From an uncultured Alphaproteobacteria bacterium (GTDB taxonomy: Bacteria; Pseudomonadota; Alphaproteobacteria; HIMB59): DNA of 53,745 nt. The position numbers and the translations under genes were made by a program. The notes beneath the pieces are model-generated. The model saw only the letters and a program-made list of their open reading frames with translations, was not told the DNA's origin and ran no database searches. Shown here one piece after another: positions 32,707 through 36,744 of this stretch. The number at the start of each line of letters is the position of its first letter. Position 1 is the stretch's first letter. The stretch lies in the NCBI GenBank assembly GCA_902509695.1, contig CABWYP010000006.1, positions 1 through 53,745 on the forward strand, given 5' to 3'.

Positions 32707-34467
32707 CTAAATATCATCATCACTTACAGTCTTACTATCTTCTTCTTTAAGAATAGATTTAGATGCATTTGGAGATAAATAAATTAAATCATATTCATAA
32801 CCATAATTATTATATTTATTTCTTTTCATTGTATGATAAACGAGATTTCCAGTCTCAAGATTTTTAAACACTGTATTAACTGAAGCATCTCCAGTTAAAA
32901 TTTTAATATCATCGAAACTATTAAATAAATCAATCTCCTCTTTTGTTGGGAATCTTACGAGTTCATATTTTGCAGAATTAAGAAATTTACCAACAATTTC
33001 ATCATATATCACAAAACCCGACTCATCTTCAGAGTAATATGTGGCAAAATCCATTGAGTCCAATGATAAATCAACATTTTTTAGAATTATTTTATCTATA
33101 GTATCTTCTTTAGAAGTGTAAAAGTTTAATGATGTTTTTTTACCTCTAAAATCAATACAAGATGGTGCATCCCAATATCCAAGAGATTCACCCCAAGAAG
33201 TTTGGTCTGAAAATTCTGCTTGAGGACAAACTTGATTTACAACATTTTTAATTTGAGAAATATTCATGTCGAAATAGAAATCTTTATATCCACCTTTTGA
33301 CTCATCAACTGTTTTTTTAGTTTCTTGCTCCATGGTTTTTTTATCAAACTGGAGATCGAATTTTTGATAGTTTGACTGATAATATTGGTGTCTTGTTTCA
33401 TTACCTTGAGAGTCAACAGTCCAGTATCCTCTATCAGACTCTTCTTCATCAAGGCAAAATAACATCGTCCCTTGATCACTATTGTCGCTAAATTTTTTTA
33501 CAATTAAATGATTAACATAAACTCCGTCAGACAGACTCCCACCTTGAACTTCTGCAACCTGAACTAATAAGTTATTGTCCATAAGAGTCCATCCTTTGAC
33601 ATAACCATTAAGATTGCCCTCAGCAAAAATCCACTCAAACTCTCCCCTGCCTTCTCCATTTTGAGTCCTATAAATATCGTTAACTTCTAATAAATTTACA
33701 TTTCTACTTTTACACTCTGGACAAATAAAAGTTTTTTTTTCAGAAATTATTTTGTTTTTAACTTCAAGATATTCCTGTCCTCCTAAAAAATTACCAGTAA
33801 CATTCTTATCAAAACCTGAAAGATAATCGTATTTTGAAAGTGCTCTTTTGCAAATTTTACTGTTTTCATCTGAGTCCGATATTTCTGAGTCCGATGTTAA
33901 TGAACTTGTATCATTATTTGTTGTCTCATTATTTTTTTGGACAACTACATTTGCTTCGTTGCTAAAGTATTCATAAACAATTGGATCACCACCATTCCAA
34001 CTTATTTTAGCATTATCTTTGTTTAAACTAATAATGTCTTTATATTGAGTGCCTTCTATATCCATAGTTGTTGAAACTTTTGAAAATTGACTCAAATCAT
34101 CAGAGATATTTTTAAAATTTCCCATGTATTTGGTCTCATTTGAGTCCTCAGAGCAAAAATAGATTAATTGAAATTCATTTCCTTCATAAAATTTATATTG
34201 CGCAGATGCATGTCCACACCCATTAAAATAATCCTTGCTCTTTAAATCTATTTCAACAGGATAATTATCAAAATTATTATCATTTGTTGAAGTTTCTAAT
34301 TCTAATTCTGTTTCTGTTTCTTCTGACTTAGAATTGTCTTGAACGACTTTTTCTAATTCTTTAGTAACATCTCCTAGAGCATCTGTTAAACCTTCAACTG
34401 AAAGTTCTAATGAATAAGATTTTGACGATAAAATTAAGAATAAAAAAATGGATAATAATATTTTCAT
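32707..34467 (-). CDS. Large exported acidic protein, function unknown
   Basis: A 586-residue protein I do not recognise. It has a signal peptide (1-19, ending KSYS), then a Glu/Ser/Thr-rich linker (45-66) and a second Asp/Ser-rich one (178-203). Cysteines are few and paired: a C-P-E-C at 249-252 and C84, C105, C338, C414 and C437, suggesting disulphides or a metal knuckle. Several segments look like beta-rich repeats (FYFCSED, MLFCLDEEESDRGYW, LIYLSPN). The last third (395-570) could be a separate domain. It lies inside the island bracketed by the duplicated membrane-protein gene and has its own 259-nt upstream gap. Confidence 0.75.
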   Translation of the reverse strand: MKILLSIFLFLILSSKSYSLELSVEGLTDALGDVTKELEKVVQDNSKSEETETELELETSTNDNNFDNYPVEIDLKSKDYFNGCGHASAQYKFYEGNEFQLIYFCSEDSNETKYMGNFKNISDDLSQFSKVSTTMDIEGTQYKDIISLNKDNAKISWNGGDPIVYEYFSNEANVVVQKNNETTNNDTSSLTSDSEISDSDENSKICKRALSKYDYLSGFDKNVTGNFLGGQEYLEVKNKIISEKKTFICPECKSRNVNLLEVNDIYRTQNGEGRGEFEWIFAEGNLNGYVKGWTLMDNNLLVQVAEVQGGSLSDGVYVNHLIVKKFSDNSDQGTMLFCLDEEESDRGYWTVDSQGNETRHQYYQSNYQKFDLQFDKKTMEQETKKTVDESKGGYKDFYFDMNISQIKNVVNQVCPQAEFSDQTSWGESLGYWDAPSCIDFRGKKTSLNFYTSKEDTIDKIILKNVDLSLDSMDFATYYSEDESGFVIYDEIVGKFLNSAKYELVRFPTKEEIDLFNSFDDIKILTGDASVNTVFKNLETGNLVYHTMKRNKYNNYGYEYDLIYLSPNASKSILKEEDSKTVSDDDI

Positions 34468-34726
34468 GTATAATATTTTAAATTAGTTTTTGGTCAAAAT
34501 AAATTATATTTTGAGTTATTTTCACCTCTTATAACTACGAAGAACCAAAACAAGAAATCTAACAAATAGCGAAAACTTACTACGAAGTTTCTACGAAGAA
34601 GTTTCCAAAAGTCCTTATTTTCTGTTAATAGTAATTAAGTGGTCGTTCTACAGAACGCCCCATTTTATAATTTCCCTTTGCTTACTAGTTTTATAATTAG
34701 TAAATATAATTTATGAAATATAAATT
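34468..34726. other. Intergenic region with CTACGAAG repeats and a copy of the tmRNA 3' end
   Basis: This 259-nt gap separates divergent genes. CTACGAAG occurs at 34535, 34580 and 34591. At 34651-34662 it carries ACAGAACGCCCC, identical to the last 12 nt of the tmRNA coding piece (32298-32309), followed in both places by an AT-rich stretch containing AATT(T)CCCT. It looks like a remnant of an attachment site. No open reading frame of note. Confidence 0.5.
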
Positions 34727-35497
34727 ATGAAAAAAAATATAGTAATTGACGATTTTGGAAGAACCCCGCAAGTTTCGAAAACTATATTAAAAGTTATAAA
34801 CGATATTCCAAACATAAACGAAGTTGCTGTTATGTTAGATTTTGTAAACTCATCTTTTCACAATAAATTAAAATTAATCAAAATTAAAAAATCACTACAC
34901 TTAAATTTGACTGATAATATTCATATTGAAGACGTAGGAAAAAATTTAAGTTTCATACAATTGGTTTTTTTATCAAAGAACAAAAGGGTATTTGTTTATA
35001 AAGAAATAAATTCTCAAATTAAAAAATTTCAAAAATTATATAAGTTAACTCAAATTTCAATAAATGGTCATGAGCATGTGCATACTATTCCATGGATTTA
35101 TAAATATTTATATAATAATAAAGATGTTAAAAGTATTAGGTATGTAAATGAAAAATTTTTATTTGTGTTCAAAAAAATTAAATTTTTTGAATTAACAAGA
35201 AACTGCATTGCATATAGTATTGTAAAAATATTTAATATTTTAAACAAAAAAAGAAGTAATAAAAAATTTTTTGGATTGCTTTATACAAACCATATGTGCA
35301 AAAAAGTTTACAACAAAATAATTAAAAATTACTCTAATTCTAATTTAGAAATACTTTTTCATCCAGGGAAAGCAAATAAAAATGAAATAAATTATTTTTC
35401 AAATAAAAAATATTATAAATATTTTGTTTCAAATAATAGATTAAATGAACTAAAAGAATTATATGAAATTAAAAAAAATTTTAATAATTATAGATGA
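34727..35497 (+). CDS. YdjC/ChbG-like carbohydrate deacetylase
   Basis: A 256-residue protein with the marks of the YdjC/ChbG family of metal-dependent sugar deacetylases: IDDFGR at residues 7-12 (metal-binding Asp), SLHLNLTDN at 56-64 and NGHEHVHTIPW at 113-123 with the His cluster. These enzymes remove an acetyl group from N-acetylated sugars such as chitobiose. No signal peptide is visible, so it should act in the cytoplasm. The base composition is much more AT-rich than neighbouring core genes, with many Lys, Asn and Ile codons, which points to transfer. The last 35 nt overlap the formyltransferase gene. Confidence 0.78.
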   Translation: MKKNIVIDDFGRTPQVSKTILKVINDIPNINEVAVMLDFVNSSFHNKLKLIKIKKSLHLNLTDNIHIEDVGKNLSFIQLVFLSKNKRVFVYKEINSQIKKFQKLYKLTQISINGHEHVHTIPWIYKYLYNNKDVKSIRYVNEKFLFVFKKIKFFELTRNCIAYSIVKIFNILNKKRSNKKFFGLLYTNHMCKKVYNKIIKNYSNSNLEILFHPGKANKNEINYFSNKKYYKYFVSNNRLNELKELYEIKKNFNNYR

Positions 35498-36242
35498 AAC
35501 AAATTTTTACCACCCTAAATTTTTTTATGATTTATATAAAAAATTAAAATCAAAAAATTATAAAATATCTGTTGGACTAATAACAAAAGTTAAAGAAAAA
35601 AATTCTATTGAGAAATATCTGTTTAAAAATATTTTAAAACTTAATTTAAAGGAAATTATTAAACTAGTAACAAAAAAAATTTTTTTTACTTTAGCAAAAA
35701 AAATTTGCAGTAAATATAATATTTTTTTTAGTGTAAAATCTGCAATTTTAAAACTAAATATAAAATTCTTTGAAATTAAATATGATATAAATAAAACAAA
35801 ATACTTAAACAAAATTGCTAAAATTGAACCTGATTTAATAATTTCAAGTTGCTCTTTAATATTTAAAAAAAAAATTTTATTGTTACCTAAATTTGGTTGT
35901 ATTAATAGACATTCATCCTTGTTGCCTTCAAATGGAGGAGTCTATCCAGTTTTTCATTCAATTTCAAAAGGTGAAAAATATTCAGGTGTAACTATACATT
36001 GTATGACATCTAAAATAGATCAGGGCAAAATTTTAGCACAAAAAAAAATTTTTAATAAAGATAATAATTTATCAAAAATTTATAAAGATTGTTTTGCAAA
36101 CAGTGCCCAGCTAATAGTTATAGCAATTGATAATTTAGTTAATAAAAAGTTTTTAAAAGTAAAACATAATAAAAGTTATAATTCATTTCCAAATAATGAT
36201 GATTGGAAACTATTTAGAAAAAATAATGGTAAATTTATCTAA
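35463..36242 (+). CDS. Formyltransferase-family protein (sugar N-formyltransferase-like)
   Basis: A 259-residue protein with a formyl-transferase core like that of methionyl-tRNA formyltransferase and sugar N-formyltransferases. The catalytic set is visible: N148 and H150 in CINRHSSLLPSNGG, and D186 in SKIDQGKIL, with GVTIHCM between. The C-terminal tRNA-binding domain of Fmt is absent, so a sugar amine is the more likely acceptor, with formyl-tetrahydrofolate as donor. The first 110 residues are diverged and very Lys/Ile-rich. It overlaps the deacetylase gene by 35 nt. After the stop the same frame stays open for 31 charged codons. Confidence 0.78.
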   Translation: MKLKKILIIIDETNFYHPKFFYDLYKKLKSKNYKISVGLITKVKEKNSIEKYLFKNILKLNLKEIIKLVTKKIFFTLAKKICSKYNIFFSVKSAILKLNIKFFEIKYDINKTKYLNKIAKIEPDLIISSCSLIFKKKILLLPKFGCINRHSSLLPSNGGVYPVFHSISKGEKYSGVTIHCMTSKIDQGKILAQKKIFNKDNNLSKIYKDCFANSAQLIVIAIDNLVNKKFLKVKHNKSYNSFPNNDDWKLFRKNNGKFI

Positions 36243-36338
36243 TACAACGAAGACAACGAAGTCAGAAAAGAAAGTGAAAAGAAAATAGAGCAATATGACA
36301 ACGAAGAAGACAACGAAGAAATTCCAATTAGTAAGTAA
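36243..36338 (+). repeat. ACAACGAAG repeats in an open frame following the formyltransferase stop
   Basis: The 9-mer ACAACGAAG occurs at 36244, 36253 (exact tandem), 36298 and 36310. In the frame of the preceding gene, directly after its TAA, there are 31 sense codons (YNEDNEVRKESEKKIEQYDN and onward) before the next TAA at 36336-36338. The stretch is highly charged. It could be a lost C-terminal tail, the end of an older gene replaced by the cassette, or chance. Confidence 0.5.
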
Positions 36339-36369: not shown

Positions 36370-36744
36370 TTAATTTCCTATACCTAACCTAAGTCTTGCC
36401 ACTTGCATATTTTCTTCTGTATCACTTAATTCCCATCCTGACGTTAACATACGACTTGTAAATTGCTTATTATAAAGAAAAGGGATTATAAGTTGAAAAA
36501 GACCAAAAGTAACTACTGAAAAAATTAAATGAAGGACACCTATCAAAATTTCACCACGAAAAATAGGAACAAAAAAACTAAAAAAAAAGTAAGTCCAACA
36601 ATATCCAAAATAACCTGGTTTATTCAAACCTGAATTGGAATGCTTCAAATTAATCTTCTTTTGAGCGCCCATAAATATTAAGCCTAAAATTAATGGAGAA
36701 AAAAATACTAATATTATAATTAGAAATACTATTGAATATTCCAT
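36370..36744 (-). CDS. HrgC-like membrane protein, intact copy
   Basis: A 124-residue protein with an N-terminal membrane helix (about 5-25), a short basic loop (KKINLKHSN), then two more hydrophobic segments around 50-95 and a soluble acidic tail. The motif GYCWTYFFFSFFVPIFRGE resembles the small membrane-protein family that includes HrgC, whose role is not well defined. A frameshifted copy in the same orientation lies at 32312-32685, next to the tmRNA. The two bracket the island genes. Confidence 0.75.
   Translation of the reverse strand: MEYSIVFLIIILVFFSPLILGLIFMGAQKKINLKHSNSGLNKPGYFGYCWTYFFFSFFVPIFRGEILIGVLHLIFSVVTFGLFQLIIPFLYNKQFTSRMLTSGWELSDTEENMQVARLRLGIGN

Follow-up and report, generated by a model that had tools for sequence, protein, structure and literature searches.

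Does a pair of overlapping genes in an uncultured alphaproteobacterium of the HIMB59 lineage, one coding for a YdjC-type deacetylase and the other for a short formyltransferase, specify two enzymes that exchange one amide for another on the same sugar? The stretch of DNA analysed (53,745 nt; hereafter the window, in whose coordinates positions are given unless a locus is named) is contig 6 of a 1.0-Mb genome that is 65% complete. The initial annotation had proposed that the first enzyme removes the acetyl group of an amino sugar and the second formylates the freed amine. We examined the two proteins and their setting, the company kept by their relatives, and the other ways in which the same parts could be read.

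The overlapping genes and their surroundings

The predicted carbohydrate N-deacetylase gene of the YdjC family (PF04794) occupies positions 34727–35497 of the forward strand (256 aa, stop codon TGA at 35495–35497). It is followed on the same strand by the predicted gene for a short N-formyltransferase of the Formyl_trans_N family (PF00551) without an OB domain (35463–36242, 259 aa, ATG at 35463). Both frames lie where they had been annotated, and they overlap by exactly 35 nt (35463–35497, forward strand). As the start of the formyltransferase (MKxK..I-IIDET) is common to its orthologues, the overlap does not arise from a mis-called start. When the region was shuffled 500 times, the longest stop-free frame had a mean of 65 aa and a maximum of 166 aa, and frames of 256 and 259 aa are therefore not due to chance. 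The strongly AT-rich composition reported for both genes was also confirmed (19.1% GC for the YdjC gene and 18.5% for the formyltransferase gene, versus 29.7% for the whole window).

No glycosyltransferase adjoins the pair. From sequence comparisons, the flanking genes are taken to be accessory. The 586-aa neighbour upstream (32707–34467) has a signal-like N-terminal stretch and belongs to no Pfam family; elsewhere in the genus (51 genomes) its only trace was in G010, where a partial match is broken by internal stops. The FAD oxidoreductase downstream was present in two of the 51 other genomes of the genus, and a 124-aa membrane-like protein without a significant Pfam match (36370–36744) lies between it and the pair. 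Searches of the genus with the flanking genes gave no clean empty site lacking the pair. The word ACGAAGA occurs 12 times in the window (3.1 expected), five of these in the short intergenic stretches on either side of the pair (34537–34599 and 36247–36319), and ACGAAGACAACGAAG-like repeats are present just downstream; these words and repeats may be what is left of insertion or repeat elements.

Family assignments of the two proteins

The protein encoded at 34727–35497 matched the YdjC family of Pfam with an E-value of 1.1e-16 (62 bits; curated cut-off 29.7). On the forward strand, the codons of its motifs are those of D8-D9 (DD motif, predicted metal/catalytic aspartates; 34748–34753), H58 (predicted metal ligand in the LHLNL motif; 34898–34900), H115-x-H117-x-H119 (HEHVH motif; 35069–35083) and H212-P213 (HPG motif; 35360–35365). 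All eight named residues were invariant in an alignment of four YdjC proteins, and the motifs line up with those of solved YdjC/ChbG chains in the PDB. The metal-site motifs recognised initially are thus corroborated by the Pfam match, the alignment and the PDB chains, and the protein probably strips acetyl groups from sugars. Of the NCBIfam models, HpnK (TIGR03473) came closest to the YdjC part, with 41.7 bits for the window protein and 129.9 bits for the fusion protein described below. Identity with HpnK was rejected for the window protein, as its score is well under the equivalog cut-off of 232.6; in contrast to the hopanoid-associated HpnK, no hopanoid genes were recognised beside it. An AlphaFold model of the window YdjC alone was of low confidence (pLDDT 41.5). 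Another genome of the same genus (G003) has a 221-aa YdjC frame (L045, 1477–2139) without the N-terminal DD metal motif, which adjoins a GT2 gene and stops near the contig end; it is possibly decayed, or its start mis-assembled.

The protein encoded at 35463–36242 matched Formyl_trans_N with an E-value of 6.8e-18 (65.5 bits; curated cut-off 26.1). Its catalytic triad, N148-R-H150 (codons at 35904–35912, forward strand) together with D186 (36018–36020, forward strand), is in register with those of ArnA and Fmt. A C-terminal OB-like domain was sought and not found in this protein; the chain ends after the catalytic domain with a tail of its own, whose signature SYxxFPxxxDWxxFRxxxGxFI (36174–36239, forward strand) is common to the orthologues and the fusion. 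The N-H-D triad and the lack of a tRNA-binding domain, both claimed initially, therefore hold, and neither window protein was moved to a different family. By these features the second protein is probably an enzyme that adds formyl groups. Its AlphaFold model, built from two sequences, was weak (pLDDT 57, and below 50 in the insert described next), with Fmt, ArnA, VioF and WbkC as the nearest folds.

The window formyltransferase also carries a hydrophobic, basic insert of 46 residues (about residues 46–92; 35598–35738, forward strand). The insert is 33–48 residues long in formyltransferases of this type, compared to 10–11 residues in ArnA and Fmt. It is hydrophobic and net basic, and in most of these proteins, the haloarchaeal one included, few other stretches of the chain are as amphipathic. 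The hydrophobicity is partly compositional in AT-rich genomes; the Haloarcula protein and the fusion, whose locus has 52% GC, also show a hydrophobic insert. We infer that the insert may be a membrane-contact element.

Deacetylases beside the insert-bearing formyltransferases

Among 162 genomes of the order, a formyltransferase of the window type was found in three, and in all three a YdjC gene is adjacent or one gene away. Any YdjC gene at all was present in only seven of the 162, all three formyltransferase carriers among them (p = 5e-5, if presence of the two is independent, as in a random draw). The co-occurrence expected of a functional pair is thus seen in the order, with linkage conserved in every carrier. 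A search of 200 related genomes identified the close formyltransferase orthologues in G127 (48% identity) and G121 (42%). The order in G127 is GT2, membrane protein and formyltransferase, followed by a methyltransferase and YdjC on the opposite strand. In G121, the contig with the formyltransferase breaks off just upstream of this gene; the bases that remain there code for the C-terminus of a YdjC protein (IILIHPG...), which stops only a few bases ahead of the formyltransferase ATG, and a YdjC N-terminus lies at the extreme end of another contig. YdjC is present and the formyltransferase absent in G085 and G123, and in G003 and G074 the YdjC contig ends too early for the neighbour to be judged.

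A natural fusion of the two proteins was also found. In an alphaproteobacterium of another family (G796), YdjC (residues 10–287, 5.5e-47) and Formyl_trans_N (residues 435–546, 2.3e-16) lie in one uninterrupted frame of 617 aa, and the linker between the two domains has no stop, no ATG and a single GTG. The locus has 52% GC and the fusion is therefore no artefact of AT-rich DNA. Over its whole length, the formyltransferase half shares 37% identity with the window protein, compared to 25% for the more distant YdjC half. A GT2 gene of the PgfS/ArnC type directly follows. The fusion was absent from the other three genomes of its order, and is known from one MAG-like assembly.

Outside the YdjC-linked group, formyltransferases of the window type were found beside deacetylases of the NodB type, which are not homologous to YdjC, in three lineages. 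In G184 and G775, a NodB-type polysaccharide deacetylase comes directly after the formyltransferase, and a GT87-like protein and a GT2 flank the two genes. In G530, a gammaproteobacterium by our own reading of its class (the database assigns it to the same phylum only), the overlapping partner of the formyltransferase is an XrtA-type polysaccharide deacetylase, within a polysaccharide cluster. On a plasmid of the haloarchaeon Haloarcula halobia, the genes for the formyltransferase and a polysaccharide deacetylase share 4 nt. YdjC and NodB being unrelated Pfam families, the common factor is the reaction, deacetylation, and not descent. Of nine formyltransferases with the insert that were examined, a set sampled by similarity and not an unbiased census, eight have a deacetylase that is adjacent, one gene away or fused. 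The exception, in G1078 (L192, 6895–7668), is of the same type and has no deacetylase nearby; by eye, it sits beside a GMC-type oxidoreductase.

The association is not a property of short formyltransferases in general. This idea was ruled out by a clade of family f75, for which a deacetylase neighbour was sought and none found; the inserts of this clade are 38–39 residues long, with net charge zero in the one protein scored (G512). A distinct clade of short formyltransferases (MKILFLANKDLASN...) in the family of G530 (L094–L121) has the same C-terminal signature, and its members mostly stand alone, outside glycan clusters. In the formyltransferase tree, the deacetylase-linked proteins had a single origin in 36% of bootstraps. 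Wider searches gave an Omnitrophota Fmt as the only match in a single-protein scan of genome contigs, no relatives in viral contigs, only weak partial matches in phage records and no YdjC relative on plasmids. A plasmid of Halapricum desulfuricans gave a coding match of 188 residues that resembles a formyltransferase (L081, 6001–6576), at a place where no such gene is annotated.

Could this linkage reflect nothing more than shared residence in envelope-sugar islands, the two enzymes acting on different sugars or positions without a joint reaction? Surface-glycan islands do shuffle genes, both families are common in glycan clusters, the gene orders vary, and a methyltransferase separates formyltransferase from YdjC in G127. 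However, the overlap in the window, the adjacency in G121 and the fusion in G796 speak against it, the deacetylase has been substituted by a non-homologous one in three lineages, and the window pair is solitary, without an island around it. We therefore regard the island explanation as rather unlikely.

Proposed order of the reactions and related pathways

The conserved linkage, the fusion and the exchange of non-homologous deacetylases all favour the pairing as a two-enzyme amide-exchange module, in which N-deacetylation of an amino sugar precedes its N-formylation; we consider this reasonably probable, the chemistry being deduced from the families. Counting against it are the absence of a glycosyltransferase next to the window pair, the G1078 formyltransferase and the f75 clade with no deacetylase neighbour, the YdjC carriers G085 and G123, in which the formyltransferase is missing, and the finding of the fusion in a single assembly. 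The reaction order and substrate given in the initial annotation stay at the level of inference. In the proposed scheme, YdjC would remove the acetyl group from an N-acetylamino sugar by hydrolysis, and the short formyltransferase would then formylate the exposed amine with 10-formyl-tetrahydrofolate as donor; the resulting N-formylamino sugar would go into a surface glycan. That the two steps are consecutive is argued from the fusion and the overlap. Neither window protein has an obvious secretion signal, and both enzymes would work at the cytoplasmic face of the membrane. The most likely substrate would be an amino sugar carried on polyprenyl phosphate, the product of an ArnC/PgfS-like GT2, as in the case of NaxD; part of its hold on the membrane may come from the hydrophobic insert of the formyltransferase. 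NaxD, a member of the YdjC superfamily, deacetylates undecaprenyl-phosphate-GalNAc (PMC11279074, PMC10927774). This precedent, the insert and the ArnC/PgfS-like polyprenyl-phosphate GT2 neighbours in the G127, G121 and G796 clusters lead us to favour a lipid-linked sugar over a free nucleotide sugar as the likely substrate; the UDP-GlcNAc-type substrate suggested initially was a guess.

The main competing explanation uses the same parts in another order. As in the Arn pathway, the amine would be formylated for transient protection on a nucleotide carrier, the GT2 would transfer the sugar to polyprenyl phosphate, and YdjC or NodB would remove the formyl group again to leave a free amine. ArnD is itself of the NodB type and the GT2 neighbours resemble ArnC. 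The logic of ArnA, ArnC and ArnD is established (PMC12650200), and L-Ara4N synthesis likewise joins a Formyl_trans_N enzyme, a deacylase and an ArnC-like GT2. In that pathway, however, the amine is made by an aminotransferase and formylation comes before deformylation, whereas no sugar aminotransferase that could supply the amine was recognised in the clusters here, where translations were read without HMMs. ArnA lacks the insert, and ArnD has a model of its own (NF011923) that matched none of the YdjC proteins and three NodB partners scanned, although a true ArnD used as control scored 528.7 bits. Moreover, NaxD, the YdjC enzyme whose role here has been described, is a deacetylase. A fused enzyme that adds and removes the same formyl group would presumably be futile, and the fusion thus favours deacetylation feeding formylation. 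On these grounds we judge the protection cycle unlikely. A third alternative, in which the window protein would be a methionyl-tRNA or glycinamide ribonucleotide formyltransferase that has diverged and has nothing to do with sugars, is highly improbable: among PDB chains it is matched best by a Fmt, but it has no OB domain, it scores far under the cut-offs of the methionyl-tRNA formyltransferase (TIGR00460, 91.8 bits versus an equivalog cut-off of 201.5), ArnA bifunctional (83.8 versus 777) and PurN models, the genes of its relatives lie with those of deacetylases and glycosyltransferases, and two further Formyl_trans_N genes of the window genome (C4, a Fmt-sized gene in a 320-aa frame, and C1, in a 308-aa frame) mean that it is not needed as the tRNA enzyme.

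The amide-exchange reading also has to be set against other known systems. VioF and WbkC, which were matched in both sequence and fold searches, share the Formyl_trans_N fold, the N-H-D triad and amino-sugar substrates. Such sugar N-formyltransferases follow a PLP aminotransferase and act on dTDP- or GDP-amino sugars, and to our knowledge they have no deacetylase partner. NodB-NodA and LpxC-LpxD deacetylate an amine and then re-acylate it, the same logic as the proposed swap, but they add a fatty acyl group and not formyl, with acyltransferases of families unrelated to the formyltransferase. Pairs that deacetylate and then acylate are therefore known as a kind, and the part that appears new is the formyl version with a fusion and two deacetylase families; none was found in the portion of the literature that was searched. 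The lipid A galactosamine pathway of Francisella and Acinetobacter likewise combines a YdjC-family deacetylase, NaxD, with a polyprenyl-phosphate-linked N-acetylamino sugar as its substrate and ArnC/ArnT-like enzymes. The window protein is in the YdjC family by its Pfam match and NaxD in the YdjC superfamily (PMC11279074). Unlike the proposed pair, NaxD leaves a free cationic amine, and a formyltransferase partner is not described in the NaxD literature searched.

That the pair is kept together in relatives, and once fused, suggests a dedicated and undescribed acetyl-to-formyl swap on a cell-surface sugar. More tentatively, there may be a recurrent deacetylase-formyltransferase module in bacteria and archaea that converts N-acetyl to N-formyl groups on lipid-linked amino sugars, two unrelated deacetylase families having been recruited to one membrane-adapted type of formyltransferase; we put this wider proposal forward as possible, and somewhat doubtful. 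The N-formyl sugars of surface glycans are usually explained by amines made by aminotransferases. If the amide exchange is real, they could also arise by editing of ordinary N-acetyl sugars, perhaps on a lipid carrier, and the surface could thereby be altered cheaply, with no new nucleotide-sugar pathway. From the pairing, N-formylhexosamine is to be expected in the organisms that carry it, a haloarchaeon among them.
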